Below, piece after piece: positions 3,657 through 40,877 of a stretch of DNA of 40,877 nt. Under the pieces are notes generated by a model. The model had not been told where the DNA came from and searched no databases. It worked only from the letters and a program-made list of their open reading frames with translations. Within the stretch, counting starts at the first letter, position 1. Each line of letters begins with the position of its first letter. Source of the DNA: Lachnospiraceae bacterium (GTDB taxonomy: Bacteria > Bacillota > Clostridia > Lachnospirales > Lachnospiraceae); contig JAFSGE010000014.1 of the NCBI GenBank assembly GCA_017434885.1, positions 1 through 40,877 of the forward strand, read 5' to 3'. The position numbers and the translations under genes were made by a program.

Positions 3657-4586
3657 TTACAAATCTTCTGCATACCTTTTCTGCATACCTGCAATCCGAT
3701 GATTGATTTCATCTCTTACAAATGCAGGCTCTAACACTTCTGCCGCCGGACCGAAAGACAAAATCATTCCGTAAACCCAGTCATCAACCAAATACCATGA
3801 TTTTATCAAAAAATCTCCGTTCTTTAACACCGTAATATTTTCTTCCTCAAAACGGTCATAAACACGATATGCCTCTGTTTTATCAATCAACAGATGAATT
3901 TCCGCATGCACCTCATTATAATTGATATTTTCATGGGTAACACATGATTCTTTATCAGCTCTCTCTTCATCCGTTATTTCTGCATATGAAAAATTCTCGT
4001 CAAGCACCTCTACCCGTTTCATACGCATTACTTTAAACATCCGTATAGCACCTCTGCTTTCACAAAAAGCACGCAAATACCAGGTATATTCCTTAAATAA
4101 TAACTGCACAGGCCATACTGTCCTGCTTGCCATTTCACCATACTGCCCGTAATAATCAAACCGGATTTTCTTTTTTTGTAAGACCGCTTCTTTTAACTGC
4201 CCATACAATTCCTGTCTTCTGCCGCTCCAATCAGAAAAATCAATAGATACCCATTGAAAGGAATCTACCTTAAAGAATTCTCCAAGTTTCTTTAAAGTTT
4301 CTGCGTTTTCCTGTGCTCCTGTTTCCTGAAGACTGACAAGAGCCGCCAAAATTTCCTGTTGCTCTTCTTTTGATACCAGTCTTTTGTCCAAAACAAACTG
4401 CTCCGTTAATCTGATTCCGCCATTTTTACCTTTTGTGGCATAAATCGGAATGCCCGCCATACTAAGATGTTCCACGTCACGGTAAATGGTTCGCGTAGAT
4501 ACCTCAAACCGCCCGGCAAGCTCCTTTGCCGTGACATTTCCCTTATTCATTAATATGTAAATAATTGCAAGCAGACGATCCAGCAT
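3657..4586 (-). CDS. YafY-type transcriptional regulator (HTH_11 plus WYL)
   Basis: A 309-residue DNA-binding protein. Residues 1-60 hold a winged helix-turn-helix of the HTH_11 type (VTAKELAGRFEVSTRTIYRDV). From about 140 comes a WYL domain (YTWYLRAFCESRGAIRMFKVMRM), followed by the usual C-terminal extension. WYL domains sense small ligands or nucleic acids and control nearby genes. The neighbouring zinc-ribbon/glycosylase pair, with the inverted repeat at 3600-3625, is the natural candidate target. The start has TGGAGATAATAGT before ATG. A good promoter lies at 4632-4660. The ligand is unknown. Confidence 0.88.
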   Translation of the reverse strand: MLDRLLAIIYILMNKGNVTAKELAGRFEVSTRTIYRDVEHLSMAGIPIYATKGKNGGIRLTEQFVLDKRLVSKEEQQEILAALVSLQETGAQENAETLKKLGEFFKVDSFQWVSIDFSDWSGRRQELYGQLKEAVLQKKKIRFDYYGQYGEMASRTVWPVQLLFKEYTWYLRAFCESRGAIRMFKVMRMKRVEVLDENFSYAEITDEERADKESCVTHENINYNEVHAEIHLLIDKTEAYRVYDRFEEENITVLKNGDFLIKSWYLVDDWVYGMILSFGPAAEVLEPAFVRDEINHRIAGMQKRYAEDL

Positions 4587-4631
4587 ACTATTATCTCCAT
4601 GTAATTGGGTTATTTGCTTTTTTCTGCACCC

Positions 4632-4660
4632 ATTTTATCACAATTAAAGCACTTGCTCAA
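4632..4660 (-). promoter_or_regulatory. Sigma-A promoter of the WYL regulator
   Basis: Minus-strand TTGAGC and TAAAAT separated by exactly 17 bases, in the gap after the exchanger gene. Transcription would start about 40 bases before the ATG at 4586. Confidence 0.6.
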
Positions 4661-4674
4661 CCATCTGCTGTCTC

Positions 4675-5610
4675 CTATGAATTCAGCAAATACACAAAAT
4701 ATCCTGCATAACACACCAGCATAAAAATTCCTGCAGGTCTTGTCAGCTTCTTTGTCTTTAATACGCAAAGAAATAATAGCACTCCTGCTAAGATAGCAAT
4801 TGTCATATCAATCACAAAATTAGGCATAAACACAACAGGAGTAATGACTGCGGCAGTACCTACAACAAAAAGAATGTTAAAAATATTACTTCCTACAATG
4901 TTACCGATTGCAATGTCTGCTTTTCCTTTCATTGCCGCAGAAACAGAAGTAAATAATTCAGGAAGTGATGTTCCCAGTGCCACAATGGTAAGTCCGATAA
5001 AACGCTCACTGAGGCCTGCATATTTTGCAATTGCAGTTGCAGCATCAACTGTCACATCACTGCCCCAAACAACCAGTATCAAACCGACTACTGCTGCAAT
5101 AAAAAGTTTCCACATGGGCATTTCTTTGCTTTCTTCCGTTACTTCCTCTTTGTTTTTCTTTGCCATCATAAACAAATAGCCTAAATAAACAAGGAAAAAT
5201 ATCCAAAGAACAACACCTTCCAAACGACTCACTTCATTGCCTGTGTAACCAAGACCAAGAAGTACAAAGGTAATCAAAATCATGTATGGTATTTCAATCC
5301 GAATTGTAGACTTTGCAACTGCAGTTGCAATAATCACGGAAGTCAGGCCCAAAATAACCAGGATATTTAATATATTACTTCCCACAACATTTCCGATAGT
5401 AATGTCTGCACTTCCCTTTAAAGCTGCTGTAATACTTACCGCAGCTTCCGGTGCACTGGTCCCCATTGCTACGATTGTAAGCCCAATTACAAGTTGCGGA
5501 ACACCAAACCTATCGGCAATTCCCGCAGAACCGTCAACAAACCAGTCAGCACCTTTTACTAACATTAAAAAACCTACCGCAAGTAAAACAATTTGTAACA
5601 AAATCTCCAT
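4675..5610 (-). CDS. CaCA-family cation exchanger (calcium/sodium antiporter type) under a manganese riboswitch
   Basis: A 311-residue membrane protein with about ten hydrophobic segments arranged as two inverted repeats. Each repeat has its alpha-motif: GTSAPEA near residue 50 with GNVVGSNILN near 73, and GTSLPELF near 213 with GNIVGSNIFN near 236. The acidic residues in these motifs bind the cation in the family. A charged cytoplasmic loop (about 150-167) separates the halves. The family exchanges Ca2+ against Na+ or H+. Here the leader is a yybP-ykoY riboswitch, which senses Mn2+, so export of manganese (alone or with calcium) is the better guess. AAAAGGAGGAACAAAA precedes the ATG. Confidence 0.88.
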   Translation of the reverse strand: MEILLQIVLLAVGFLMLVKGADWFVDGSAGIADRFGVPQLVIGLTIVAMGTSAPEAAVSITAALKGSADITIGNVVGSNILNILVILGLTSVIIATAVAKSTIRIEIPYMILITFVLLGLGYTGNEVSRLEGVVLWIFFLVYLGYLFMMAKKNKEEVTEESKEMPMWKLFIAAVVGLILVVWGSDVTVDAATAIAKYAGLSERFIGLTIVALGTSLPELFTSVSAAMKGKADIAIGNIVGSNIFNILFVVGTAAVITPVVFMPNFVIDMTIAILAGVLLFLCVLKTKKLTRPAGIFMLVCYAGYFVYLLNS

Positions 5611-29497: not shown

Positions 29498-30667
29498 TCA
29501 TTCTTTTGCCAATAATTCTTCAGCCAGTAATCCTATCTGTTTCCGGCTCTCCTCATCAAGTGCCGACATGATTTTCACAGGTGTTTCCGCGAACCTGACT
29601 CCTTTACATCCTTCCAGCATTTCTCTCATGTGTTTTGCTGCTGTTGGCATCCAGCTTCCGTTTTCGATAAGTGCTACTGTTCTATTTGCAAAATTTCTCT
29701 CACAAAGCCAATTGATAAACTCCCTCATAGGAGGAAATATCAGCGTATTGTAGGTCGTTGTGGCAAGCACCAGTTTACTGTAGCGAAAAGCTTCCGATAC
29801 TGCCTGAGAGATATCACATCTTGCCAAATCTCTCACTATCACTTTCTTACATCCGTTATTGCGAAGTTTGTCCGCCAGCAACCTCACTGCCTTTTTAGTA
29901 TTTCCGTAGATAGATGTATATGCTATCAATACGCCATTTTCCTCCGGCTGATATCGCGACCATGTATCATACAGCCTGATGTATTCATCTATCTGCCCGG
30001 TAAGTATCGGTCCGTGCAAAGGACATATTTTCTCAATTTCCAGTCCTACAACCTTTGAAAGTAATTTCTGAACGGGTATCCCGTACTTGCCTACAATACC
30101 GAAATAATAACGTGCAGCCTCCGCTTTCCACTCTTTTGGTGTTTGATTGCAACAAGGCACACCAAATGTCCCAAAGCCATCTGCTGAAAACAGTACCTTA
30201 TCTGCATGGTCATAGGTAACCATTACTTCCGGCCAATGCATCATCATTGCCGACAGAAATAAAAGTTTATGATTTCCCAGCGAAAGCATATCTCCATCGG
30301 AAATAACAATGCGATTCCCCTCAAAATCTGTTCCGAAATAATTTTTCATCATGGCAAAAGCTTTCTGCGATGCAACAGGTATTATTTCAGGATATTTTTC
30401 TATCAGGCAAAGCATGTTGGCAGAATGATCCGGTTCCATATGCTGTACAATCAAATAGTCCGGTTTCCTTTCTCCAAGTACTCTTTGCAAATTATAAAGC
30501 CATTCTTCCTTGAACCCTTCATCTACAGTATCCATAACCGCAATTTTTTCATCTATGATGACATAAGAATTATATGCCATACCCTCCGGCACCGCATACA
30601 TTCCTTCAAACAAATCAATGGTGCAGTCATTGACTCCGATGTATTTAATATCCTCTGTGATTATCAT
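29498..30667 (-). CDS. Flavodiiron protein (FprA type, oxygen or nitric oxide reductase)
   Basis: A 389-residue protein. The N-terminal metallo-beta-lactamase domain (about 1-240) carries the diiron signature HMEPDHSAN and MMHWPEVMVTYD. The C-terminal flavodoxin domain (about 245-389) has the FMN loop YTSIYGNTKKAV and TTTYNTLIFPPM. It reduces O2 to water or NO to N2O, with electrons from rubredoxin, whose gene follows. I place the start at the ATG at 30667 (MIITEDIKYIG). The farther ATG at 30724 overlaps a TATAAT box and has no ribosome site, whereas GACGAGG lies about eleven bases before 30667. Another ATG at 30676 is possible. Confidence 0.88.
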   Translation of the reverse strand: MIITEDIKYIGVNDCTIDLFEGMYAVPEGMAYNSYVIIDEKIAVMDTVDEGFKEEWLYNLQRVLGERKPDYLIVQHMEPDHSANMLCLIEKYPEIIPVASQKAFAMMKNYFGTDFEGNRIVISDGDMLSLGNHKLLFLSAMMMHWPEVMVTYDHADKVLFSADGFGTFGVPCCNQTPKEWKAEAARYYFGIVGKYGIPVQKLLSKVVGLEIEKICPLHGPILTGQIDEYIRLYDTWSRYQPEENGVLIAYTSIYGNTKKAVRLLADKLRNNGCKKVIVRDLARCDISQAVSEAFRYSKLVLATTTYNTLIFPPMREFINWLCERNFANRTVALIENGSWMPTAAKHMREMLEGCKGVRFAETPVKIMSALDEESRKQIGLLAEELLAKE

Positions 30668-30722
30668 AATTTGCATAACCTCGTCTGTCAGTTTCTTTTC
30701 CATAGTGTTTTCACTTTTGTTC

Positions 30723-30728
30723 ATTATA
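30723..30728 (-). promoter_or_regulatory. -10 box of the flavodiiron operon promoter
   Basis: A perfect TATAAT on the minus strand just after the terminator of the chemotaxis gene. Sequence at the -35 distance is T-rich and weak, so an activator may be needed. It would leave a leader of about 45-50 nt before 30667. Confidence 0.4.
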
Positions 30729-30740
30729 TGCAGAACTTTT

Positions 30741-30781
30741 AAAAAAAAAGAGCATCGCCTTCATAAGCGATACTCTTTTTT
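30741..30781 (-). terminator. Terminator of the chemotaxis-receptor gene
   Basis: AAAGAG-C-ATCGC pairs with GCGAT-A-CTCTTT around an 8-nt loop, with T-runs on both strands (nine on the minus strand). It begins 25 bases past the stop at 30806 and separates the receptor from the flavodiiron operon. Confidence 0.9.
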
Positions 30782-30805
30782 CATCAGACATTAATTCAAT
30801 TACTT

Positions 30806-32518
30806 TTAAAAATTATATTTACTTACCTGTTCACTTAATTTATCGGAATGCACAGAACTTTGTCTGGAAGCTTCATTCAGATTCTCAAAGCTTTCCGATA
30901 CTTTATTCGTTGAAAGAGACAGTACATTTGCACTTTCCGCAGTTAATGTAACAATTTCCGTAATTCCTTCCAGACTTGCATTAATATCGGCTATTGTTCC
31001 GGCGATTTCTGTACTCTGCGCACCGATTTGTGTCATCTGCTCCCGAATCGCCTCTGTTGTATTACCGTATTCCTCTCCCAACTCTGCAAAGGAATCATAA
31101 TCTTTTGCCACATCTTCAGATACAAACCGAATCATTTCTTCCAGTACATCCGATAATGTTCCGACCGCTGATAAAACCTGTGCATTAATTGTGTTAATCT
31201 CTCCAACTGCCCGGTCAATATCTACGCTTAAATTTCCCACTTCCGTTGCCACTACCGCAAATCCGGCTCCCATACTTCCTGCACGCGCTGCTTCAATCTG
31301 TGCATTCAGGCTGAGCATTCTGGTCTGTCCGGCAATGGAACTGATTTCTTCCGCAATCTGTTTTACCTGTTCAACTTTTTGAACATCCTTTGCCGTCTCA
31401 TTCATTCGCATTTGTAGTGACCGTATAGCGTTCATTGCATTTTTACGGTTCTCTTTTGCCACTGCTGATGTAGCCTGCGCATTTTCGTTTGCTTTTTGAA
31501 CCATTTGACAAATTTCATTTACTTCTTTTGCAAAATCGGCAATATGGTTTGCACTTTCAGACAGACTCTCGGCAAGTTCTTTACTGGCAGCTGCGCTCTG
31601 TTCCATGTTCATACTGATTCCGGCTATATCAGAGTTCATACCGGACATAATCTGATTATTTTCATCAACAGTACTGCTGAGTTCTTCGCCTGATACCATA
31701 ATTTCTTCCGTAGACTGTGCCACATCTTTTACAAGACTGCGAATCTGACGGATAAAAGCATTCATATTTCCTGCAATTACTTCCAGTTCATCACCTGTAG
31801 AAATATCGATTTCCTTCGTCAAATCACCGGAACCGCTCGCCAACTCTTCAATTTTGTTATTCAGCTTCTTCATTCCGCCTTTAAACTTCATCATCAGCAG
31901 AAAAAGTACGCCAAGACTCACGATGTAAATAACCACACAAAGAATCACTACCAGATTCCGAAGTGCTATCATCTGCTCATCAATCCAATTTGCACTGATA
32001 TCCACACCTACTGCACCAACCACTTCACTTCCTGCCATAACAGGACTGTAGGCGGATACGTGACTACCCCATTCATCGGTAAAAGGCTCGTCATCTGCCG
32101 CCGTAATCTGTTCGTCAAAAGTAGCACAAAGTGCATCGGTAGCCTCACATTCCTCTCCAATGACTGCCGGCTCTTCCGGGTCAGCATCTACTACAAAAAC
32201 AAACTGCTCCTCTCCGGTTTTACGTAATGTATATATATATTCAATATCGGCATTATCCCGAAACAAAGCCAGTTGTTCAATGACCGTATTGTAGCGGTCG
32301 CTGCCTTCATCCCCTTCCACAATCTGCTGCAATATCTCTCCGTCTACATTCATGGCTGCACACTGCGCAATATTCATTACATTGCTTTGAATCTGTGCAA
32401 ATAATGCTGACCGGGAACGGCTGTATGCAAAATATCCAACCAGCACATTTCCTATAAGTAATAAAACAGCAAGCCAAATAAATAACTGGGTAAAAATTCC
32501 AATCCGACGTACCTTCAT
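30806..32518 (-). CDS. Methyl-accepting chemotaxis protein
   Basis: A 570-residue receptor. It has a transmembrane helix (about 9-30), an extracellular domain of about 155 residues with Cache-like text (AVIGEECEATDAL, VVGAVGVDISANWIDE), a second helix (about 190-212), a HAMP domain (about 213-265), and a long cytoplasmic coiled-coil. The hairpin tip is LSLNAQIEAARAGSMGAGFA with VVATEVGNLS, a variant of the usual IEAARAGEQGRGFAVVA text. It signals to CheA/CheW. The ligand is unknown and there is no C-terminal NWETF tether. GAGGGAGAAGCATT precedes the ATG. The promoter looks like sigma-A (TTTTCA-17-TATAAT at 32550-32578), not sigma-28. It stands next to the unknown cluster but after a terminator. 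Confidence 0.93.
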   Translation of the reverse strand: MKVRRIGIFTQLFIWLAVLLLIGNVLVGYFAYSRSRSALFAQIQSNVMNIAQCAAMNVDGEILQQIVEGDEGSDRYNTVIEQLALFRDNADIEYIYTLRKTGEEQFVFVVDADPEEPAVIGEECEATDALCATFDEQITAADDEPFTDEWGSHVSAYSPVMAGSEVVGAVGVDISANWIDEQMIALRNLVVILCVVIYIVSLGVLFLLMMKFKGGMKKLNNKIEELASGSGDLTKEIDISTGDELEVIAGNMNAFIRQIRSLVKDVAQSTEEIMVSGEELSSTVDENNQIMSGMNSDIAGISMNMEQSAAASKELAESLSESANHIADFAKEVNEICQMVQKANENAQATSAVAKENRKNAMNAIRSLQMRMNETAKDVQKVEQVKQIAEEISSIAGQTRMLSLNAQIEAARAGSMGAGFAVVATEVGNLSVDIDRAVGEINTINAQVLSAVGTLSDVLEEMIRFVSEDVAKDYDSFAELGEEYGNTTEAIREQMTQIGAQSTEIAGTIADINASLEGITEIVTLTAESANVLSLSTNKVSESFENLNEASRQSSVHSDKLSEQVSKYNF

Positions 32519-32573
32519 AATGCTTCTCCCTCTTTACAACATTTTTTATATTATACTACATATGCAATCACAT

Positions 32574-32608
32574 GAAAAGAAACAATCCGACTCACTCGGA
32601 TTGTTTCT
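32574..32608. terminator. Terminator at the end of the unknown-gene cluster
   Basis: AGAAACAATCCGA pairs perfectly with TCGGATTGTTTCT around CTCAC (13 bp). TTTTC follows on the minus strand. It lies just past the stop at 32615 and overlaps the putative -35 region of the chemotaxis gene. Confidence 0.87.
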
Positions 32609-32614
32609 AAAAAA

Positions 32615-33199
32615 TTACTCAGGTACTTCTACGGATGCGATGGTATCTGCCACATCCACTATCTCCGGTCCGGCTGCAAAGGTTTCTGTGTTATCTGCCA
32701 CCTCACCGGGGTCATCATATTCCTTTTTTTCTTCCTCATCTTCCCAAAGCGAGTCATACTCTTCTTTTTCTTTCGCCATGGCTCCGATGTTCTTAGCTGC
32801 CTGATACATCTCCATACTGTATTCCATCAGCTTCTTTTCGTCTGCTGCCGGTACTATTCCGCCTTTCATAAGACGTCTGGCAACCTCCATAATTTTGCCT
32901 AAGTCTTCCACGTACTCTTCCATGGCATCACCCTGTTGCTCAGAGGAAACCATATTTGCCGTAGCCGCCCACTGCTCCATAAGCTTATTCATGTAATCCT
33001 GATACTCATTCTGCTTTTCACCTACAGCTTCTATCGTAAGTTCTAAAACAGCCGCTTCATTGGCATAAACATTTTTTCCGTCAGGAGTCGTGTTGATTTT
33101 TTTCTCCAGTTCCTGCTTTTGCTTGTAAAGAACAGTCTGTTGCTCACGATAAGATTTTATCTGCATACTATAAAGCTGTCTTGCCTCTTCGATTTTCAT
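32615..33199 (-). CDS. Unknown coiled-coil protein under a sigma-28-like promoter
   Basis: A 194-residue, highly charged, largely helical protein that I cannot assign to a named family. Residues 1-85 look like a coiled coil (YREQQTVLYKQKQELEKK, TIEAVGEKQNEYQDYMNKL). A second helical part follows (about 95-150, VPAADEKKLMEYSMEMYQAAK). The tail is acidic and disordered (WEDEEEKKEYDDP, then a Glu/Ala/Val-rich end). It has no cysteine, no signal peptide and no membrane segment. The start at 33199 has AAGGATG nine bases upstream. Its promoter at 33248-33275 is the best sigma-28 match of the window. The small helical build would suit a flagellar or secretion chaperone or adaptor, but that is inference. 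Confidence 0.7.
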   Translation of the reverse strand: MKIEEARQLYSMQIKSYREQQTVLYKQKQELEKKINTTPDGKNVYANEAAVLELTIEAVGEKQNEYQDYMNKLMEQWAATANMVSSEQQGDAMEEYVEDLGKIMEVARRLMKGGIVPAADEKKLMEYSMEMYQAAKNIGAMAKEKEEYDSLWEDEEEKKEYDDPGEVADNTETFAAGPEIVDVADTIASVEVPE

Positions 33200-33247
33200 A
33201 TACTCACATCCTTATGATTATTAAGTACGTCCTTGTACTTATAATGT

Positions 33248-33275
33248 ATATCGGCATGGCATTGTTTTTTCTTCA
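33248..33275 (-). promoter_or_regulatory. Sigma-28 (SigD)-like promoter, copy C
   Basis: Minus-strand TGAAG (33271-33275), 15 bases, then GCCGATAT (33248-33255). This matches TAAA-N15-GCCGATAA/T used by SigD/FliA. It shares AAGAAAAAA and ATTATAAG blocks with the elements at 37430-37522 and 39867-39965. A small AAGTAC/GTACTT hairpin follows. Confidence 0.75.
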
Positions 33276-33334
33276 CTTTCGGCAAAAATATTCCGTTCCA
33301 AATGCCCTTATTCTGTTGTGAAGTGTTGTGATTC

Positions 33335-34282
33335 CTACATCATCATTAATGACATTCTCATAGAACGACCTTTTTCTATATCTTCCCATGTTCCATTAAT
33401 TACTTCATCCGTCGGCATACCGCAAATCGTATCACCAAGTTTCTCTCTCAAGCCATTCTGAAGCATACTATGTATCTCTAGCTCTGCTGACTGCCCGGAC
33501 TGCATCGCAAGCATACTGTTCATGCCACCAAAGCCCGAACCTCCAAAGGAACCAAAAGAACCGCCGCCCATAAAGGAAAAACCACTCAGGGTAATATCAG
33601 AACTACCTTGAAGCCAAAGTTGCATAAACATGGCATGACGAGCCATTCGTTCCATCCACCAATCGTATTCATCTACCTCATTGTTCTTTTGTTTATTACT
33701 GCGCATGGTATCTCCACCACCACAGGAAAGAACATTGGCAATTTCTCCATCCTCTCCAATGGCAATCGCCTGAGACATGCCTGTTGTATAACCGGGAGCA
33801 ATGGCTTCATTTCTTGCAATATCATATGCCCACCAGCTCTCAATACGCTCCATGACCTCTTTAGCAAATTCCGGATCTTTTTCCATACGCTCCTGTGCTT
33901 TTGGATGTATCATAACTGCCTTACTGTTTGGAGCAACTGCTAAATATCTCTGATTCTTCGGATTAGTACCTGTCGGTTTCCAATTTTCTATCAGTTCTGT
34001 GGACTTCTCACCCTCTTGAAATAATGCTTCAAAAGGATAATCATTTCTGGTACGCCAATCACTGCTTGTTGCGTCTCCAACATTATAAACAAGGTTTGGA
34101 TATTTCGCTTTTAACATACTCTCCACAGATATTTTTTCTGTTCTGGCCGCATCTACCGATGCAACACTTTTACTTTCAAAAACACCATTAAAAGAGGTTA
34201 CCTGTTCCCTGCCGGATACTTTTTGCTTTGAATATCCGTAATAGTTCATCATCATTTTACTAAGTTGCATACTATCTATCAT
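33335..34282 (-). CDS. Unknown protein, paralogue of the gene at 34402-35139
   Basis: A 315-residue protein of unknown function. The N-terminus is polar (MIDSMQLSKMMMNYYGYSKQ). The core (about 55-195) begins AKYPNLVYNVGDA and continues with VAPNSKAVMIHPKAQERMEKDP and AIAIGEDGEIANVLS. The neighbour at 34402-35139 has the same order of elements (AKYGNVMIMNVGKD, VVIAPNILEQMANDP, GVVIHEDGSVTYYLS). A Gly/Ser/Phe-rich linker (about 235-262) and a Met-rich end (RSMRMSLMMM) follow. No signal peptide is visible. The ATG at 34282 follows AAAGGAGGCACT. A hairpin at 34297-34322 lies just before that site. It resembles Lachnospiraceae DUF6033-type proteins from memory, unverified. Confidence 0.7.
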   Translation of the reverse strand: MIDSMQLSKMMMNYYGYSKQKVSGREQVTSFNGVFESKSVASVDAARTEKISVESMLKAKYPNLVYNVGDATSSDWRTRNDYPFEALFQEGEKSTELIENWKPTGTNPKNQRYLAVAPNSKAVMIHPKAQERMEKDPEFAKEVMERIESWWAYDIARNEAIAPGYTTGMSQAIAIGEDGEIANVLSCGGGDTMRSNKQKNNEVDEYDWWMERMARHAMFMQLWLQGSSDITLSGFSFMGGGSFGSFGGSGFGGMNSMLAMQSGQSAELEIHSMLQNGLREKLGDTICGMPTDEVINGTWEDIEKGRSMRMSLMMM

Positions 34283-34296
34283 AGTGCCTCCTTTCT

Positions 34297-34322
34297 GCAA
34301 CCCATCTGTCAGTCAAGGTTGC
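34297..34322 (-). promoter_or_regulatory. Leader hairpin with GACTGACAGA loop
   Basis: GCAACC pairs with GGTTGC; the 14-nt loop contains GACTGACAGA on the minus strand. The stem ends immediately before AGAAAGGAGG, the ribosome binding site of the gene starting at 34282. The same loop on a different stem is found at 39802-39829. Confidence 0.6.
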
Positions 34323-34323
34323 T

Positions 34324-34400
34324 CTGCTGTCTACGCTCCGCTTCGGTCGGCGCAAAGCGGATGTCCACCGGACATCCTGCGCCCCAGAAGGTCCGAGCAG
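34324..34400. repeat. GC-rich palindromic element (REP/MITE-like)
   Basis: A compact 77-base element, far richer in G+C than its surroundings. GGATGTCC/GGACATCC (8 bp, 3-nt loop) is nested inside GGCGCA/TGCGCC, and the outer ends CTGCT/AGCAG also pair. It fills the gap between the two paralogous unknown genes. No T-tract follows, so it is not a typical terminator. No second copy is present in the window. Confidence 0.6.
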
Positions 34401-34401
34401 T

Positions 34402-35139
34402 TTAAATGCCTTGTATCATACTACTTATTGTACTGATAGCTCTCTCATACGCTGAAACCGCCGGAGCAACAGGCTGTGTCTGTCCCACAATATAAAATCC
34501 AACGGAACTGTCATATATCTGACTTCTTCTCATCTGTTCCATAAGATGAGCATGGTATTGATTTTCAGCAATCCGTCTTCGTTCTGCGGCAGCCTCCTCG
34601 CTTCTTTTAATATTTTCTCTGCGTTCTTCTGCCTTTTTCTCTCTTTTTTCCTTCTGTGCAGCTTCAAATTTTGCTTTCTTCTCAGGACCTTCCTCTCCGC
34701 TAAGATAATATGTTACCGAGCCATCCTCATGTATCACTACACCTGCTGAAGTAGTAACATGCCCCATTGCAGCCATAAATGCCTCTGTTTCTGGTATCGA
34801 ATCAAAGTGCTGTTGTATCTTTTCCTCGTAATAAGCCGCCTTCTTTGGATCATTTGCCATCTGTTCCAAAATATTAGGTGCAATTACCACATTGGAATAT
34901 CCGGCTGTACCCATTCCCAGATTATCCATGCTGCTTTGGTCTTTTCCAACATTCATTATCATTACATTGCCGTATTTTGCACGAAGCTGTTCTGTATATG
35001 CTTCCACTTTGGATACATTTGCTCCACTTGCCTCCTGCAAACTACTTGTAAAACTGTTCCCATTCACAGATGTTTTCTGTGTCCGGTTTTGGTATTGATA
35101 TGCCATTTGCATAACACTTGCCACATTACTCAAATTCAT
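34402..35139 (-). CDS. Unknown protein coupled to the histidine kinase gene
   Basis: A 245-residue protein of unknown function with the same core as the gene at 33335-34282. A polar start (MNLSNVASVMQMAYQYQNRT) leads to AKYGNVMIMNVGKD, VVIAPNILEQMANDP and GVVIHEDGSVTYYLS. A long, strongly charged helix follows (about 160-205, rich in Lys, Glu and Arg) and ends in a hydrophobic tail. No signal peptide, no cysteine. I start it at the ATG at 35139, because AAAGGAG lies eight bases before it; an ATG at 35157 precedes the site. Its start lies inside the end of the kinase gene (14-base overlap), so the two are translated together. Resemblance to DUF6033-type proteins is from memory, unverified. Confidence 0.72.
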   Translation of the reverse strand: MNLSNVASVMQMAYQYQNRTQKTSVNGNSFTSSLQEASGANVSKVEAYTEQLRAKYGNVMIMNVGKDQSSMDNLGMGTAGYSNVVIAPNILEQMANDPKKAAYYEEKIQQHFDSIPETEAFMAAMGHVTTSAGVVIHEDGSVTYYLSGEEGPEKKAKFEAAQKEKREKKAEERRENIKRSEEAAAERRRIAENQYHAHLMEQMRRSQIYDSSVGFYIVGQTQPVAPAVSAYERAISTISSMIQGI

Positions 35140-36616
35140 GTTCATCTCTCCTTTCATTCTGCAACATAACCGTTAATGTGAATTTTTTATTGTGAGCAGT
35201 CCAATCCACGCCACCGTGATATTTTTCTGCTGTATTCTTTATATTGCTAAGTCCGATTCCGTGAGCCTTTTTATCTTTCTTATCCGTTGCCGGAAACTCA
35301 GAGTATTTTTTTCCGTAATACGAAGTATTACGTGTAATCTTACCATCAAAGCTGTTCTCCACTTCTATAAAGAACATCTTGCCTCTTGTAAATGAGGACA
35401 GAGTAATAAAAGCATCTGCACTCTTATCATTCTTTTTCAGCTTCTTACAGGCTTCGATTGCATTATCCAAAGCATTTCCGATAATAATTCCTATATCATA
35501 GCCTTGTATCTGCAAATTCTCCGAGAACAACAGCCTATCGGCATTTAACTGAATATCCGGTATAATGCGAGTCAGCTCGTGATATTTCATATTCAGCAGA
35601 ATATCAACTACGCTGTTACCCGTTTTGTACTGAAAATCCAACCTATCCATCGTCTGATTCAGTTGCGAAAGGTAATTCTGCAATTCCCCATTAGTCTGAC
35701 CTTCCTCATTACCTGCAAGCTGCATAATCACAGACAGGGTGTTTTTCATATCATGCTTCATACTGCGTATTCCACCATAGATATGCTCCATTTCTGCCAT
35801 ATGCTCCTGCATATTTTTCATTTGCTTTTCTAAAATGAGTTTGTCACTCTTTTCCTGATTCAGCGTTATCATATCCTGAAAGAGCTTGACACTATAAACA
35901 ATGGAAAGAAGCGACAAAATCAGAATTGCCGGGGTAATTACCATAAGAATCGGATATTTCCCATACAAATCCTGTGGCACACCATTTTCCATCGTAAGCA
36001 GGATTGTCCGAAGCATTACACATAACAAAAAGCCCACACAGCCCGGTGTCAGCAAAAACAATACTTCCTGTCTTTGGACCGGATACTCTTTATCCTTATA
36101 ATACTTAACCACCGCTTTTAATGCTCTATACATCAGAACCATGTAACAGACCACCATAAGCGTCTGCAAAATACTTGCTGTAACATCAATCAAATGCTCT
36201 GTCGTTCCTGCTGATACATAATTCTTCTGCATTAGCAAAACCCACAACTCGAATAGTTTTCCACCGCATACAACTACCATCATTCCTATAAAAGAACACA
36301 AATCCCTGATTGCCATGAATGTAATGGTTAAAAATGCAGCCATCTGTGTCCCGATATGATAAAACAGCTTACCAAATAAAAATACTGCTACCGATAACAG
36401 CATTAACTTTCCCAATGTTTCTTTGGTTTCATAACTGCTAGGAAAACAATGATCCAGGATATAATCGGTAACAACAAACACGATTATCAACAAATATTTC
36501 CCATATTTACCAAACCATTTCTTTTGCTCCACAAAAGAGTCATAATAACTGGATAGGCAGCACCCTGTAAAAATAGTAGTCACAATACCCAAAATAATGC
36601 TTATAACACTATACAA
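35126..36616 (-). CDS. AgrC/ComD-like sensor histidine kinase (GHKL)
   Basis: A 496-residue membrane kinase. About six hydrophobic segments occupy residues 1-250. A coiled linker follows (250-280), then the H-box RSMKHDMKNTL with His288. The GHKL ATPase domain has the N-box IIGNALDNAIEACKK near 380 and the G-box AHGIGLSNIKNTAEKYHGG near 455. This is the layout of peptide-sensing kinases such as AgrC. The start is probably the TTG at 36616. GGAGGTGG sits eight bases before it, whereas the ATG at 36631 has no ribosome site and contains that very sequence. It overlaps the stop of the LytTR regulator by eight bases. No peptide precursor or processing gene lies nearby. Confidence 0.88.
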   Translation of the reverse strand: MYSVISIILGIVTTIFTGCCLSSYYDSFVEQKKWFGKYGKYLLIIVFVVTDYILDHCFPSSYETKETLGKLMLLSVAVFLFGKLFYHIGTQMAAFLTITFMAIRDLCSFIGMMVVVCGGKLFELWVLLMQKNYVSAGTTEHLIDVTASILQTLMVVCYMVLMYRALKAVVKYYKDKEYPVQRQEVLFLLTPGCVGFLLCVMLRTILLTMENGVPQDLYGKYPILMVITPAILILSLLSIVYSVKLFQDMITLNQEKSDKLILEKQMKNMQEHMAEMEHIYGGIRSMKHDMKNTLSVIMQLAGNEEGQTNGELQNYLSQLNQTMDRLDFQYKTGNSVVDILLNMKYHELTRIIPDIQLNADRLLFSENLQIQGYDIGIIIGNALDNAIEACKKLKKNDKSADAFITLSSFTRGKMFFIEVENSFDGKITRNTSYYGKKYSEFPATDKKDKKAHGIGLSNIKNTAEKYHGGVDWTAHNKKFTLTVMLQNERRDEHEFE

Positions 36617-37322
36617 AGATACCACCTCCATTTTTCAGATACCGCATATACACCTTTACAAATTCACTGTACTTATCCTTTGACAAAATGATTGTTTCTC
36701 CGTTATGTAGTGTAATACTGTCATTCCCGTATTCCATAATAAATGCCATATTTACCAGATACCCTCTATGACAACGGTAAAAACTGCCGACTAATTGCTT
36801 TTCCAATTCACCAATAGCCGCATAAGCCTCCACGGCATCTGTCTTAGTGTGTATTTCAACCTTTTTTGCCCGGCTTTCAATATATAAAATGTCACTCTGG
36901 TTGAAAGTGGCATTCCGGTTTCTTGTTTTTACAAATAGTTGCCCGTTTGTTTGCTGCTTTCTCTTTCCTACTTCTAAGACTGCACGATCATAAACCTCGC
37001 TAAACTTGTGTTCCTCAATCGGCTTTATGAGATAGTGGAACGCAGCTACATCAAATGCATCAAAAACATATTCTTTCACGCCGGTAATAAATATCAGTAC
37101 CGTGTTGTCTGCTTTTTGCCTTAATGCTCTGGCTGTATCAATTCCATTCATTCCATCCATTTGTATATCAAGGAATATGATGTCATATACGCTGTTAGCC
37201 TGTAGCAAATCCTCTCCCGTCCCATAAGTATCAATCTCACAGTCGGTCTGCTTTTTCTCTATCAATTTTTTAATCTGCTCCCTGACGACCTTTTCATCAT
37301 CAACGATTGCAATACGAATCAA
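36609..37322 (-). CDS. LytTR-family response regulator (AgrA-like)
   Basis: A 237-residue regulator. The receiver domain (1-120) has D8/D9, the phosphorylation site D52 in FLDIQMDG, and the switch Thr and Lys in FITGVKEY and YLIKPIEEHKF. A LytTR DNA-binding domain follows (about 140-232, DILYIESRAKKVEIHT ... FYRCHRGYLVNM). LytTR proteins bind paired direct repeats near promoters. The start is a TTG with AAGGTGAG upstream and the family N-terminus IRIAIVDDE. It heads an operon with the GHKL kinase and the unknown gene at 34402-35139. A sigma-28-like promoter lies 32 bases upstream. Confidence 0.9.
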   Translation of the reverse strand: MIRIAIVDDEKVVREQIKKLIEKKQTDCEIDTYGTGEDLLQANSVYDIIFLDIQMDGMNGIDTARALRQKADNTVLIFITGVKEYVFDAFDVAAFHYLIKPIEEHKFSEVYDRAVLEVGKRKQQTNGQLFVKTRNRNATFNQSDILYIESRAKKVEIHTKTDAVEAYAAIGELEKQLVGSFYRCHRGYLVNMAFIMEYGNDSITLHNGETIILSKDKYSEFVKVYMRYLKNGGGIFV

Positions 37323-37353
37323 AATCTCACCTTCTTTATGTTTCTCGTTTCAT

Positions 37354-37380
37354 ATATCGGCACCTTTTTTGCCATTTTGG
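37354..37380 (-). promoter_or_regulatory. Sigma-28-like promoter of the two-component genes, copy D
   Basis: Minus-strand CAAA, 14 bases, then GCCGATAT (37354-37361). It lies 32 bases before the TTG start of the response regulator. It lacks the AAGAAAAAA and ATTATAAG blocks of the other copies. Confidence 0.58.
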
Positions 37381-37429
37381 GACAAAAGGAACGAAACCCC
37401 ATCTGAACGGGAATGAAATTCTTTCTTAA

Positions 37430-37522
37430 ATAAAAATAGCGTCCATTTCCACACTCACTCCCTTGAAAACAGACGCCATCCTTAGCTGATAATATGCATC
37501 GACAAATATTCTTTTTTTCTTA
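37430..37522 (-). promoter_or_regulatory. Duplicated promoter-plus-hairpin element, copy A
   Basis: TAAG (37519-37522), 17 bases, then CGAT (a sigma-28-like pair) leads into GCATATTATCAGCTAAGGATGGCGT. The hairpin GCGTCTGTTTTC / GGAAATGGACGC follows at 37439-37476 (12 positions including G-U pairs), then TATTTTTAT. Copy B at 39867-39965 keeps the promoter, AGCTAAGGATGGCGT, and the tail, but has a different stem. It lies in the 403-base gap before the response regulator. It could make a short RNA or act as an attenuator. Confidence 0.65.
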
Positions 37523-37562
37523 CTTCAATGGAACAAAACCCTAATTTATCATTCTTCCGCAA

Positions 37563-37704
37563 TCACCCAATCAGAGCCACATACTTCTTCCACTCCATGT
37601 AACCTTTCATATCTCCAAAGCAATACGCAAACTACATAATATCATTCCAGATTCTCCCGTCTGCGGACTTGCATAGGACATAAGAGCATCGGATTACTCA
37701 TCAT
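37563..37704 (-). pseudogene. Possible decayed small gene
   Basis: Right after the stop at 37726 lies an AGAAAGGATGAG ribosome site and an ATG (37704) opening a 20-codon frame (MMSNPMLLCPMQ...). A second frame then opens (37681-37607, MSYASPQTGESGM...). A third (37610-37563, MKGYMEWKKYVALIG) overlaps it by ATGA and has its own TTTGGAGAT. Three short frames in series with protein-like text suggest one gene of 50-60 codons broken by two frameshifts. It could also be chance, or genuine tiny peptides. Confidence 0.3.
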
Positions 37705-37725
37705 CTCATCCTTTCTGACTCTGAC

Positions 37726-39789
37726 CTAATATCCCGGATAGCCCATCTGCTTTCTCCATTCCTCACGTTTCTGCTGCTCCCTCTCTTCTGTTGTGCCCAT
37801 ACGCTCCAACATTTCCTTATAAAGCAACTCATCAATTTCATTCGCTGTATATAATTGTCCTCCTGAAATTGTGCGGAATATTCTCTCCCCGTTGTACTCA
37901 GGATGAGTTCTCTTATACATTTCCTCATAAGAAACCTGCTGTGCTTTCAATTTTTCCTCATTCGCGGCCATAATCTCCATTTGCATCTGATGCATTTCTT
38001 CTGATGTATAGAATCTGACTCCTAACGGATTAGTATACTTCGCCCACTGCATTTTGTCTTTGTCAATATACATGGAATCCCCTACCGTAATGGAGTAATC
38101 AGGAACGCCCTTATCTGTTCCATTGATAAACTCCATAAAGCCTTCCATGTCAATCTCATCATTCAGAAAATCATTCCAGAAATTTTTATGGGCTGCAAAA
38201 CGCATATTCCAGTCAGAGGGGAACTGTCCGATAAATTCCATAACTTTGTCATACTGTTCCTTATTTTCAAAGGTAATAGACCACTCATACCCTTCGGTCT
38301 GTCCCGCTTTTCTACAGAAAATGCCTTCCTCGGTATACCATGTGATATAACGGATATCGTCATCATCCGGATCAGCAGTTTCATACACACAAGAAGTGGA
38401 TTCTGTGGTTAATAAAGTGCTTGCATCAGTAGTAAACACATCTTCCTTTTTGGTTTCCTTTTCCTCTTTTCTAGCCTGCTCCTCCTTCATTAGTTCCTGA
38501 ATTGCCTCTTGGACGGAATCAAATTTGTCAAGGAACTCCTCCCACTCTTTTTCTGTGAAAGACTGTGAGCCAATCTGATATGAGGCTTCCGTATCCCCAT
38601 TTTGAATTTTTGCAAAAATCTCATTTATCTTTTCTTCCAGAATTTTTGCATAATCCACTGTTTCCTCTGTGTCAGCAGTATCTGTACCTGTTAATCCTTC
38701 CAGTTTTTCAATAAATGCTCTGTAAAACTCCTTTTCCTGCTCCACATATTTAGCAGCTTTTTCCCCCCGCTGGCCTATCGGCATAAGAGGATTTTCCAAG
38801 TCACACAGCATCTCTCTTGCCGCTTGTAATGCGGATGCTACAGAACCGCCAAATACATCCGTGTAATCTGCCACACCGTTCTGTCTGTTCTCTACCTGAT
38901 GTATAAAAACTTGTGAAAGGTAATCCATTCTCTCACCTTCGTTGTACCCGGTTTCTTCAGTAGCTTCCATAAATGCCTGTTTTACTTCCTCCGGAGCATT
39001 TGGTGCAAATCGCGAAAAATCAATTGCAGTATTATCTTTCACTTCATTATTCGCTGTATATGTAGCAAAAAAATCAAATAATGCTTTACAATCCTCTGCC
39101 TGATTCTCTATTCCGGCGTCCTTGTATACCTGTATCATCTTCTCCATGATGGATGTCCAATCAAATCTTTCATTCAAAAACACATCTGCACCTGAAAGGC
39201 TGCCGCAATATCCGATACTGCTTGCATTTCCTCCATACACCTCAAGCTGCTGATGAGAGCCAAAGGTTCCTCCATCTGTAATTCCCATCTTATCGGTGTA
39301 ACTTAACAATGCGAACATCTCAAGCTGTGTTGCATTATTAGGGCTTACCTTATTCACTTCTACGTTATAGATTACCTTCTTACCACCAAGATTCGAAACA
39401 ACCTGTACTATGGGATTATCCGGTGTGGACTTTTCACTAAGCATTGCCCGCATACCATAGGTAACAGACTGACCTTCTTCCGGAACCATAGTAAGTCCCA
39501 TAAATTCTCCATCGTCCTCAGTTTCAGCTATGGATACTGCTCCGGTCTGCTTTTCGGTACAAACTTCTACAGTCTTTGTCACTCCCCTTTGGGACATCCA
39601 TGCCTTGTGAAATTCCTGATAATCCACAAACTCAGCAAATCCCGGATTCTCTGTCAAATCCTGTGGATTTTTTTCATTGGGTGTTAGTTTTCCATCTTCT
39701 GTCTGTGAAAAACCTGCAAAGTATTTCACACTCGTATTCGTCTGATACGGTGTATAATACCTGTTGCTTGCACTACTTCCTATCTGCAT
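37726..39789 (-). CDS. Large unknown Lachnospiraceae-type protein
   Basis: A 687-residue protein of unknown function. The polar start MQIGSSASNRYYTPYQTNTS has no signal peptide. A globular first part (about 60-340) contains VVSNLGGKKVIYNVEVNKV. A Glu/Lys-rich helical stretch (about 340-470) includes the segment IGSQSFTEKEWEEFLDKFD, which I recognise as recurrent in Lachnospiraceae proteins. Then come a Thr-rich linker and a C-terminal domain (about 485-625: YITWYTEEGIFC, GYEWSITFENKEQYDKV, DWNMRFAAHKNFWNDFL, DYSITVGDSMYIDKDKMQWA). The end is charged and Glu/Arg-rich. The start at 39789 is set by AAAGGAGAATT; a longer frame from 39915 runs through the hairpin element. A GACTGACAGA hairpin precedes the ribosome site. 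Confidence 0.72.
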   Translation of the reverse strand: MQIGSSASNRYYTPYQTNTSVKYFAGFSQTEDGKLTPNEKNPQDLTENPGFAEFVDYQEFHKAWMSQRGVTKTVEVCTEKQTGAVSIAETEDDGEFMGLTMVPEEGQSVTYGMRAMLSEKSTPDNPIVQVVSNLGGKKVIYNVEVNKVSPNNATQLEMFALLSYTDKMGITDGGTFGSHQQLEVYGGNASSIGYCGSLSGADVFLNERFDWTSIMEKMIQVYKDAGIENQAEDCKALFDFFATYTANNEVKDNTAIDFSRFAPNAPEEVKQAFMEATEETGYNEGERMDYLSQVFIHQVENRQNGVADYTDVFGGSVASALQAAREMLCDLENPLMPIGQRGEKAAKYVEQEKEFYRAFIEKLEGLTGTDTADTEETVDYAKILEEKINEIFAKIQNGDTEASYQIGSQSFTEKEWEEFLDKFDSVQEAIQELMKEEQARKEEKETKKEDVFTTDASTLLTTESTSCVYETADPDDDDIRYITWYTEEGIFCRKAGQTEGYEWSITFENKEQYDKVMEFIGQFPSDWNMRFAAHKNFWNDFLNDEIDMEGFMEFINGTDKGVPDYSITVGDSMYIDKDKMQWAKYTNPLGVRFYTSEEMHQMQMEIMAANEEKLKAQQVSYEEMYKRTHPEYNGERIFRTISGGQLYTANEIDELLYKEMLERMGTTEEREQQKREEWRKQMGYPGY

Positions 39790-39801
39790 AATTCTCCTTT
39801 C

Positions 39802-39829
39802 TGAGGTTCTTCTGTCAGTCAGAACCTCA
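39802..39829 (-). promoter_or_regulatory. Leader hairpin with GACTGACAGA loop, second copy
   Basis: TGAGGTTCT pairs perfectly with AGAACCTCA (9 bp), and the loop is exactly GACTGACAGA on the minus strand. The stem ends directly before GAAAGGAGAATT, the ribosome site of the gene starting at 39789. The stem shares no sequence with the one at 34297-34322. Confidence 0.65.
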
Positions 39830-39866
39830 CCACTCTCCGAAAGGACCAAGTGGTATATATTTTTAT

Positions 39867-39965
39867 ATAAAAATAGCGTTATGCTCTCATAGATAATACT
39901 CATCCGTGAAATCATAACGCCATCCTTAGCTTATAATATGTATCGGTAATAATTCTTTTTTCTTG
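39867..39965 (-). promoter_or_regulatory. Duplicated promoter-plus-hairpin element, copy B
   Basis: CAAG (39962-39965), 16 bases, then CGATACATATTATAAG and AGCTAAGGATGGCGT. The hairpin GCGTTATG / CATAACGC (39876-39920, with an inner TTTCA/TGAGA pairing) follows, then CTATTTTTAT. It lies upstream of the large unknown gene, about 85 bases after the stop at 40048. AAGGA before the ATG at 39915 could also start a short leader peptide inside the hairpin. Confidence 0.65.
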
Positions 39966-40047
39966 CTAAAACAGAACAAAAACCAATCTGAATGGTAACA
40001 AAACCTGAAATTAGAGTGATACATCAATCTTTACTGCCTTTTTTGCA

Positions 40048-40877
40048 TTAAACAATTCCACCGTGCTTATATTGCTGTTCCCGAAGCTTATCCAATGATT
40101 TTGCTCCATCCGGGCTATACAAATCTAATAACTCCAAAAAATTGCCGGACGCCTTGCACCCATGCAATAACAGACGCATACTATCCGCATCTTTACCAAA
40201 TAACATACCCAACAGACTCATATCATACTGATTTTGACTATCACATAATATTCCCTGCTGATGTAAATCCTCCATAAAACCATAAGTACGAACCTCGGAA
40301 CCTATTCGCATCGCCACATGATACAAATCCGGATCAACAGTATGAAGATAATTTAGGTAGCGTGTCTCAATATTTCTATTGGGCGTGCCGCTCATCATCC
40401 AATTTGCAATATCTTCCACAGAGGCTTCCATACCAACATCATCAAGCAAGTGCATCTGCCATCTGCCGCTTTCCGTCTTTGTAAAAGTATATTTTCCATC
40501 TTCCGAATACAATGTATTTGACCATGAGTTTTTGGGAGCCGCCTGGTCTCTGACAAGCACATTAAATGCATCCATTGCAACTCTGTCCGGGCTACACTTT
40601 TTCTCATCTGTAGGTAATTCCATTTTCCTCAATGCTACTGCAGTCTGCACCAACTCATAATCCGATATGTTTTCTCCATGATAAAAATAAGAATTTTGTT
40701 CTTTCAATTTTTCAAATGAAGCCGGTAGTTTTACTTCTGCCAACTGCTTTTTTGAAACCTCAGTCCAATCTTCTTTTTTCTTACTACCTGCTGTCTGCAT
40801 CTGTACTCTCGGACCATTTGTAATCTTTGTACCATATTTTGCATTTACCATATGTTCCGTTATTGTCACATGGGCAA
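40048..40877 (-). CDS. Unknown protein, 5' end beyond the window
   Basis: At least 275 residues; the frame is open at the window edge, so the true start is probably outside. A GTG at 40869 and an ATG at 40851 (MVNAKYGTKITNG) are possible internal starts, but neither has a good ribosome site. The visible part is soluble: a Lys-rich stretch (SKKKEDWTEVSKKQLAEVKLP), then YSEDGKYTFTKTESGRWQMHLLDD near 125-150, and a helical C-terminal half (EDIANWMMSGTPN, LHTVDPDLYHVAMRIGSEVRTYG, SLLGMLFGKDADSMRLLLHGCK). I recognise no family. There is no clear terminator; copy B of the promoter element begins about 85 bases downstream. Confidence 0.65.
   Translation of the reverse strand, partial: AHVTITEHMVNAKYGTKITNGPRVQMQTAGSKKKEDWTEVSKKQLAEVKLPASFEKLKEQNSYFYHGENISDYELVQTAVALRKMELPTDEKKCSPDRVAMDAFNVLVRDQAAPKNSWSNTLYSEDGKYTFTKTESGRWQMHLLDDVGMEASVEDIANWMMSGTPNRNIETRYLNYLHTVDPDLYHVAMRIGSEVRTYGFMEDLHQQGILCDSQNQYDMSLLGMLFGKDADSMRLLLHGCKASGNFLELLDLYSPDGAKSLDKLREQQYKHGGIV

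Follow-up and report, generated by a model that had tools for sequence, protein, structure and literature searches.

The window, a stretch of 40,877 nucleotides from a Lachnospiraceae bacterium (contig JAFSGE010000014.1), ends in a group of genes for uncharacterised proteins arranged around a two-component pair and adjoining a chemoreceptor gene (Table 1). The pair had been called "Agr-like" in an earlier sequence-only reading of the stretch: a LytTR regulator was indeed accompanied by a GHKL kinase, but the label is loose (44.5 bits for the AgrA model, cut-off 400), and neither an AgrB protease nor an AgrD peptide was found among the eight scanned proteins (ORFs of at least 70 aa). The longer ORF available for P7 (to 39915) would read through the leader RNA described below. 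In the related locus L038 a P3-like stretch was fused to the P7 body. Searches of solved structures gave nothing usable for P7, for P4 or for a TIGR02530 protein (see below).

Table 1. Genes, promoter-like sites and RNA elements of the cluster, in order of coordinate.
Feature	Coordinates	Strand	Remarks
Methyl-accepting chemotaxis receptor	30806..32518	(-)	Pfam MCPsignal 2.1e-23, HAMP
P2, uncharacterised protein, 194 aa	32615..33199	(-)	s1 upstream
Promoter s1	33274-33249	(-)	GAAG-N16-CCGATA(T); SigD-type, 5' of P2
P3, uncharacterised protein, 315 aa	33335..34282	(-)	FNGVF at residue 31
Leader RNA (element B) of P3 gene	34284..34406	(-)	long insertion in hairpin 1
P4, DUF6033 family	34402..35157	(-)	Pfam PF19498 6.1e-29, 101.8 bits, cut-off 25; FTSSL at residue 30, counted from 35139, the likely start
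GHKL sensor kinase	35126..36631	(-)	Pfam HATPase_c_5 3.5e-24
LytTR response regulator	36609..37322	(-)	Pfam Response_reg 1.4e-20, LytTR 7.5e-19
Promoter s2	37379-37355	(-)	CAAA-N15-CCGATA(T); SigD-type, 5' of LytTR regulator gene
Hairpin element A after s3	37431..37484	(-)	TAAGGATGGCGT stem, ...ACGCTATTTTTA; predicted -23 kcal/mol
Site s3	~37522-37498	(-)	TAAG + TCGATGC; weak SigD-like, -10 consensus missed
P7, modular uncharacterised protein, 687 aa	37726..39789	(-)	FAEFV at residue 51
Leader RNA (element B) of P7 gene	39790..39859	(-)	two hairpins, loop GACTGACAG
Hairpin element A after s4	39868..39928	(-)	predicted -28 kcal/mol
Promoter s4	39965-39941	(-)	CAAG-N15-CCGATA(C); SigD-type, 5' of P7
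P8, uncharacterised protein	40048..40875	(-)	cut by contig end

Sigma-28-type promoters had been proposed for three intergenic regions of the cluster, and they were present there. Three of the four boxes claimed (s1, s2 and s4) had the SigD promoter form, TAAR-N14-16-GCCGATAT-like, with a single departure from TAAR at -35 in each; the fourth, s3, was too weak to stand beside them and among the relatives was seen in L036 only, where the stretch was identical. Of the two blocks said to be shared by three of the four sites, AAGAAAAAA was found in three, but ATTATAAG in two only, and s3 has ATTATCAG instead. The strict form NAAR-N15/16-CCGATA occurred seven times in the window (both strands), and three of these occurrences were intergenic, against a mean of 0.075 expected from 400 Markov-1 simulations for the 21 called intergenic regions (3383 bases). 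All three fell in this cluster, in agreement with the earlier remark that the other intergenic regions of the window lack such boxes. The octamer GCCGATAT is itself fairly frequent across the genome (133 copies vs. 56 for the reversed control; 67 vs. 39 for TAAR-N15/16-CCGATA), and its rarity was therefore rejected as an argument: the promoter evidence is one of position and conservation. Boxes were also found upstream of the P7 relative in L036, L038 and L042, and none in L037, L039, L040 and L041, where this gene may be part of a longer operon. A near-identical counterpart of s2 was located at L036 4454, 235 nt upstream of a different gene, the kinase pair being absent there, and the P8 relative of the same locus was preceded by a TAAA-N16-CCGATA box. 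Promoter s1 probably serves the chemoreceptor gene as well; in L036 the ORFs of the P2 relative and the chemoreceptor overlap, and no strict box was found upstream of that P2 relative.

The boxes matched the late flagellar genes of the same genome: the promoters of flagellin (hag), the fliD operon and flgM were of the same form, and fliA/sigD was present (C30:51932-52591, E 3.8e-80). FliA, FlhA, the flagellin N-terminus, the FlgE/F/G subfamily and TIGR02530 were over their cut-offs, and FliD, FliW, FlgM and FlgD matches were under their curated ones (31.9 bits for the flgM-like gene, cut-off 40.75); the genome thus has a fliW-like gene, and it also has a csrA-like ORF. The strict SigD box stood upstream of 8 of 22 DUF6033 heads, the other 14 lacking it, and of only 3 among 68 controls (p 4e-4; p 3e-7 in a score test). 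Judged from these sequences, SigD would drive the promoters of the cluster.

A hairpin (element A) followed both s3 and s4; the stem sequence of the second copy was unlike that of the first, yet it pairs. A simple terminator was considered and rejected, the T run being paired with AAGGA in the predicted fold. Element A may be a terminator, an attenuator or a CsrA-type hairpin.

The DUF6033 and P2 families tracked the flagellum near-strictly. Among 250 genomes of the family (nearly one per genus), DUF6033 was present in 80 of 124 with FlhA and 1 of 126 without it, the P2 family in 31 and 0, and the leader RNA in 48 and 0, respectively; in the class (392 genomes), 63 of the 65 genomes with the leader RNA had FlhA. 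The exceptions were G197, which has DUF6033 but no FlhA, and G528, which has the leader RNA together with an accessory cluster but likewise no FlhA; G229 had only a fragment of FlhA. Equal frequency in non-flagellated relatives had been named beforehand as the observation that would count against a motility-linked sigma-28 module, and neither of the two protein families was equally common there. Promoter form, boxes in relatives and at DUF6033 heads, and co-occurrence with FlhA support such a module.

The genes for P7 and P3 begin with a common two-hairpin leader RNA of about 70 nt (element B), compact in fold and with near-invariant loops. Covariation was strong (157 double-change cells, compared with 40 after shuffling and no more than 17 after sliding), also in 25 later matches, one of them from the training set (95 vs. 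25.6). In the P7 leader, CCTTTC is complementary to GAAAGG of the ribosome-site region; pairing of CCUUU with the tail had modest support in a swap test (12.3 vs. 11.39±0.37, reached by 0 of 300 swaps), and in the ACTTA/ACTTG subclass 10 of 300 swaps reached the observed value. Seven leader loci gave no match in Rfam 15 at gathering score, and positions 30500-40877 together with the flgE leader of this genome gave only matches far under the gathering scores. In the literature covered, which included few subscription papers, nothing was found on the leader RNA, DUF6033 or TIGR02530, and an earlier description outside Rfam may exist. The leader model gave 64 matches, 56 after removal of eight copies from overlapping loci, and 55 after rejection, as a false positive, of a match within the P8 coding sequence (40616-40687, 21.8 bits). 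Five of the 55 precede flgE and 44 have an accessory ORF no more than 40 nt away; three had no called ORF (L116, L137 1501, L140), and for another three the next ORF was 61-136 nt off (L041 246, L135, L148 2944). The sequence-only reading had noted neither this shared leader nor its connection with flgE, nor the export signals described below.

The hook gene of this genome, flgE, is preceded by the same leader RNA, which was also found upstream of flgE in distant Bacillota. At the flgE-type loci, a TIGR02530-like gene lay just upstream in 34 of 34 examined and flgE just downstream in 33, the remaining locus being too short to show it. A SKHAxxRLxxR stretch in the TIGR02530 protein is similar to the beginning of DUF4258, which Pfam matched weakly in 5 of 6 proteins (E from 0.018 up to 2.2).

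FxxxPhi is the letter form of the gate/export motif of rod and hook subunits. It was found in 26 of 37 RNA-linked proteins and absent from 11 (shuffled, 9.6±2.5), with its F at residue 28-34 in 17 of the 26; the 37 proteins remained after redundancy filtering of 47, made up of the 44 accessory proteins counted above and a further one from each of L153, L154 and L157. By a hydropathy measure, 44 of 44 RNA-linked proteins were without the hydrophobic N-terminus of a Sec signal or membrane helix. The motif was present in 15 of 15 FlgE, FlgD and TIGR02530 proteins (own and related), including 5 of 5 TIGR02530 proteins tested, and at chance level among soluble controls (23 of 66 proteins, 24.2 expected; F at 28-34 in 7). 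Within the cluster it starts at residue 31 in P3, 30 in P4 and, late, 51 in P7; the start of P2 has no F, and that of P8 lies off the contig.

We consider it moderately probable that the cluster is a late SigD/FliA accessory module, whose modular proteins are exported via the flagellum and translated under the control of the hook-gene leader. SigD-type promoters would serve three units: P2 with the chemoreceptor, the LytTR/GHKL pair with P4 and P3, and P7. P3 and P7 would be translated from the structured leader common to flgE, the anti-Shine-Dalgarno-like CCUUU of hairpin 1 pairing with the GAAAGGAG ribosome site; since this pairing can form, the leader most likely gates translation according to a state that is relevant to hook production too. 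The N-termini of most RNA-linked proteins combine a short hydrophobic start of the MSIxGIG type with a polar stretch and FxxxPhi, the layout of unchaperoned rod and hook substrates; most likely, these proteins leave the cell by way of the flagellar type III apparatus. Any extracellular role is inferred.

The same proteins might instead be SigD-dependent cytoplasmic helpers of motility or chemotaxis, co-expressed and never exported, FxxxPhi being ordinary in N-termini of this kind. The chemoreceptor adjoining P2, the LytTR/GHKL pair inside the cluster, the cysteines in many accessory proteins and the lack of FxxxPhi in canonical DUF6033 proteins (0 of 30; shuffled, 1.6) favor this explanation, which we judge unlikely: it leaves unexplained both the enrichment of FxxxPhi at nearly the same position in N-termini that are otherwise dissimilar and a leader RNA common to the gene of an export substrate, flgE. 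That sharing could also reflect a signal other than export, if the leader were a small-molecule riboswitch tuning motility and surface life. The leader resembles translational riboswitches in its compact pair of hairpins, its near-invariant loops and its complementarity to the Shine-Dalgarno sequence, and this is a serious, if rather unlikely, possibility; however, almost all the gene contexts examined were flgE or an accessory gene (exceptions or ambiguous cases, L041 246, L140 and L148 2944), and none had a recognisable metabolic or transporter gene directly downstream of the leader, which is unusual for metabolite riboswitches.

Chance residence of a mobile or polymorphic gene array in flagellated hosts, the boxes and the RNA traveling along, would account for the modular, shuffled bodies, the varying arrays and the G528 cluster without FlhA, but not for the constant operon position of this RNA before flgE across distant families, nor for the near-strict link to FlhA over 250 genomes, and is highly improbable. 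Within the preferred reading of an exported accessory module, a doubtful extension is that the leader works as an export-coupled checkpoint, in which the TIGR02530 protein, itself a carrier of FxxxPhi, would bind the leader and keep it repressed as long as the protein stays inside; its export through the open gate would then release translation of the hook and accessory genes. This would follow the release-by-export principle of FlgM, with the difference that it acts on RNA.

Late flagellar genes in Firmicutes are driven by SigD (sigma-28), as in the Bacillus subtilis regulon, which the present system resembles in promoter form, fliA, a flgM-like gene and the inclusion of a chemoreceptor; here, by contrast, the targets are uncharacterised modular proteins with a common leader RNA, and we know of no such shared leader in the B. 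subtilis regulon. The hag leader controlled by CsrA-FliW is likewise a flagellar mRNA leader, and both partners have putative counterparts here, but element B differs in its two fixed hairpins, its GACUGACAG loop and its place at flgE and accessory genes, not hag. The preQ1-II and SAM-II types of translational riboswitch also have a hairpin loop complementary to the Shine-Dalgarno region; the leader differs from them in having no Rfam match over threshold and in its flagellar or accessory contexts. Campylobacter FlaC and Cia are non-flagellar proteins secreted by the flagellum and share the proposed export route, although they belong to another phylum and an RNA leader is a feature of the present system; we know of no sequence resemblance to them. 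In Salmonella, the early substrates FlgD and FlgE combine a hydrophobic N-terminal signal with a downstream gate recognition motif and use no chaperone (PMC8983047). The proteins described here would share that layout, with a spacing of motif to N-terminal signal at the short end of the Salmonella requirement, but differ in having bodies not recognisable as rod or hook and many variable architectures.

The presence of a hook-gene leader in many Bacillota raises the question of how Gram-positive bacteria match hook-protein synthesis to export. If the doubtful checkpoint reading is true, Lachnospiraceae would have carried this hook-gene switch over to many accessory proteins that are secreted. 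That motile gut Lachnospiraceae reuse the leader at sets of uncharacterised proteins points to a possible further task of their flagella, the delivery of accessory proteins; if true, this would change the view of how motile gut commensals act on their surroundings.

The block upstream of P7, an unknown gene of the cluster (32615-40877, minus strand), was far better conserved than its flanks in relatives down to 49% protein identity, the most distant being Clostridium sp. KNHs205 (L042). This block had the form of a two-hairpin leader RNA: hairpin 1, with a stem such as ACCACU/AGUGGU and the loop YGGACCUUUCNGGAG, and hairpin 2, with the loop UGACUGACAGAN, followed by GAAAGGAG directly 5' of the start codon. 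The source genome (3.10 Mb in 58 contigs, the window being the complete contig C7; closest public relatives found, Lachnospiraceae MAGs) contained three copies of it, upstream of P7, P3 and flgE; in the P3 copy, hairpin 1 was interrupted by a long insertion.

The two hairpins were supported by covariation. The 51-sequence alignment showed both-side changes at 13 of 13 pairs and 157 double-change cells (vs. 40 after shuffling and no more than 17 after sliding), and a set of 25 matches obtained in the later class search, including one from the training set, showed 95 (vs. 25.6, and at most 17 in controls), both alignments being fitted to the covariance model and hence biased in its favour. The hairpins were also recovered by a direct script reading outward from the GACTGACAG loop, with gaps in some rows. 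Native pairing between the CCUUU stretch and the tail beat swapped pairing (0 of 300 swaps equalled it), with a weak margin in the ACTTA/ACTTG subclass (10 of 300 swaps reached native). Nothing in Rfam 15 reached gathering in seven leader loci, and the window stretch and own flgE leader gave matches far under gathering only. The terms “flgE”, “flagell”, “hook”, “motility” and “Lachnospir” were absent from the main texts of two candidate-RNA surveys (PMC8040213, PMC8632094); no description of this leader was found in our literature search, and an earlier account may exist elsewhere.

A first covariance model, built from 7 sequences, scored 48 of 250 family genomes as positive for the leader RNA, and every one of these had FlhA. 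With a second, built from 51 matches, 65 of 392 class genomes were positive, and FlhA was present in 63 (background 154/392); the other two were G314, with a match before flgE, and G528, whose fetched match lay among accessory genes. A phylum-wide draw gave 14 of 199 genomes, the source genome counted, and the loci fetched from 11 of the 13 others (all of the same phylum, outside the class) had the leader before flgE in 11 of 11 cases. Forty-four of the 55 accepted matches in the first set were at most 40 nt from an accessory ORF and 5 preceded flgE. The 23 class loci fetched comprised 18 of flgE type and 5 accessory ones (L153, L154, L155, L157, L158). Of 66 places compared in the class search, 44 shared a contig with flhA at a distance of 6.5 to 12.6 kb, one was 15 kb away, and 21 were on another contig or had no comparable flhA place. 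For the flgE-type loci (5 from the family set, 18 from the class search and 11 from the phylum draw), a TIGR02530-like gene was directly upstream of the leader in 34 of 34 and flgE directly downstream in 33, the last (L175) being too short to show flgE. The TIGR02530 assignment was confirmed by NCBIfam (116.6 bits vs. a cut-off of 83.2, one protein tested) and by Pfam Flagellar_put, above cut-off in 6 of 6 proteins.

The family survey covered 250 genomes, nearly one per genus, so that the effect of kinship was lessened, though not eliminated. DUF6033, the family of P4, was found in 81 genomes and FlhA in 124; FlhA was present in 80 of the 81 (the exception was G197, and G229 was scored positive on a fragment alone). 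The P2 family was found in 31 genomes, all with FlhA. Two of the five unknown proteins assigned to a motility-linked module by the sequence-only reading were thus not equally common in non-flagellated relatives. In G079, G140, G155, G172, G221, G222, G229 and G241, two stretches of the FlhA middle and C-terminal part were matched by separate ORFs of roughly 250-300 aa; all of these genomes except G229 had an additional full-length flhA match. G528, with a completeness score of 100% and no FlhA match, had DUF6033-like genes and leader RNAs on its contig C11 (L157), either by contamination or as a real exception.

The source genome was flagellated: Pfam Flagellin_N had three matches, to two flagellins and an FlgL-like protein, FliA scored 269 bits (cut-off 189.6), and flhA was on contig C30, with flgE about 12 kb away. 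FlhA, FliA, Flagellin_N, the FlgE/F/G subfamily and TIGR02530 were above their own cut-offs, and the FliD, FliW, FlgM and FlgD matches below theirs. The late flagellar block held fliD-, fliW- and flgM-like genes, with neighbours resembling flgN, flgK, flgL, flaG and fliS by eye. These late genes gave the local promoter form: TAAG-N15-CCGATAT for hag, TAAA-N16-CCGATAT for the fliD operon and TAAA-N16-CCGATAC for flgM. Three of the four sigma-28-like boxes proposed earlier fitted this form with one -35 letter off each; the fourth misfitted in the -10. Seven strict boxes were present in the window, and the three intergenic ones were all inside the cluster (0.075 expected by simulation). Relatives' loci had eight intergenic strict boxes (those differing by one base counted once): three in L036, two in L038 and one each in L039, L040 and L042. 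Seven were 33-241 nt upstream of genes of the cluster's kind, and the eighth, a copy of s2, was 235 nt upstream of a glycosidase-like gene where the kinase pair was absent. The same search of own flagellar stretches L048 and L049 gave one more box, in L048. Among the best 30 scoring DUF6033 loci (a subset of all DUF6033 matches), 22 genes were preceded by a gap of at least 80 bases; a strict box lay between 300 bases before the gene and 60 bases inside it for 8 of these 22 and for 3 of 68 controls (p 4e-4; score test p 3e-7).

A separate hairpin, element A (CTAAGGATGGCGT...ACGCTATTTTTA), had a SigD-type or SigD-like box ahead of it in the window and in loci L036 and L038; its stems varied yet paired, with GGA in or near the loop, and it is possibly a CsrA site or an attenuator. 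The hag leader had a GGA-rich ribosome site, and its CGCAAGGATGCG is a possible CsrA-type GGA hairpin.

Locations of the features discussed
Feature	Location	Remark
P2	32615-33199	
P3	33335-34282	
P4	34402-35157	DUF6033
P7	37726-39789	
P8	40048-40875	
SigD-type sites s1; s2; s3; s4	33249-33274; 37355-37379; 37498-37522; 39941-39965	s3 weak
Element A copies	window 37431-37484, 39868-39928; L036 4348; L037 7861; L038 2999; L039 7786; L040 7861	
Relatives' eighth box	L036 4454	
Hairpin 1 loop insertions	window 34284-34406; L039 7856-8000	long GC-rich inverted repeats
Leader RNA copy	L041 246-316	decayed ribosome site, 136 nt before gene with secreted-like product start; possibly a relic
fliA	C30:51932-52591	
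fliW-like gene	L046:4435-4899	
csrA-like ORF	L046:4216-4434	
hag leader	L045, upstream of 19061	minus strand
Unknown 1001-aa protein, directly 5' of second flagellin gene and FliS-like gene	own C36, L048:1317-4322 and 4306-5418	

Most leader-linked accessory proteins shared a start of the MSIxGIG or MQVGSS type followed by a polar stretch, and were otherwise dissimilar; whole internal modules varied among P7 relatives, one of which (L038) had a P7 body running on into a P3-like stretch. By hydropathy, the N-termini of all 44 leader-linked proteins tested were non-hydrophobic (maximum 1.07, vs. 2.69 for the chemoreceptor). The gate recognition motif, FxxxPhi in letter form, was present at residues 16-65 in 26 of 37 non-redundant starts (9.6±2.5 in shuffled starts; 0 of 2000 shuffles reached 26), and 17 of these 26 starts had the F within residues 28-34. 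It was also present in FlgE, FlgD and TIGR02530 proteins of the source genome and four others (15 of 15), in 23 of 66 soluble controls elsewhere in the source genome (shuffle level, 7 at residue 28-34) and in 0 of 30 canonical DUF6033 proteins from the best 30 scoring loci. Salmonella rod/hook subunits, according to PMC8983047, require two elements at least about 26 residues apart, an N-terminal hydrophobic signal and the gate recognition motif, the latter being at least 30 residues from the start; the accessory proteins were at the short end of this spacing requirement.

Most likely, SigD would turn the cluster genes on once the hook is complete, the leader RNA common with flgE would add a translational gate, and the gene products would exit via the flagellar export channel. 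The gate might be opened by the TIGR02530 protein, by CsrA/FliW or by a small molecule. Inspection by eye showed LytTR/GHKL-like pairs (or fragments of pairs, at locus ends) next to such arrays in L037, L040, L148, L150, L152 and L157, and these may exert further control of the arrays.
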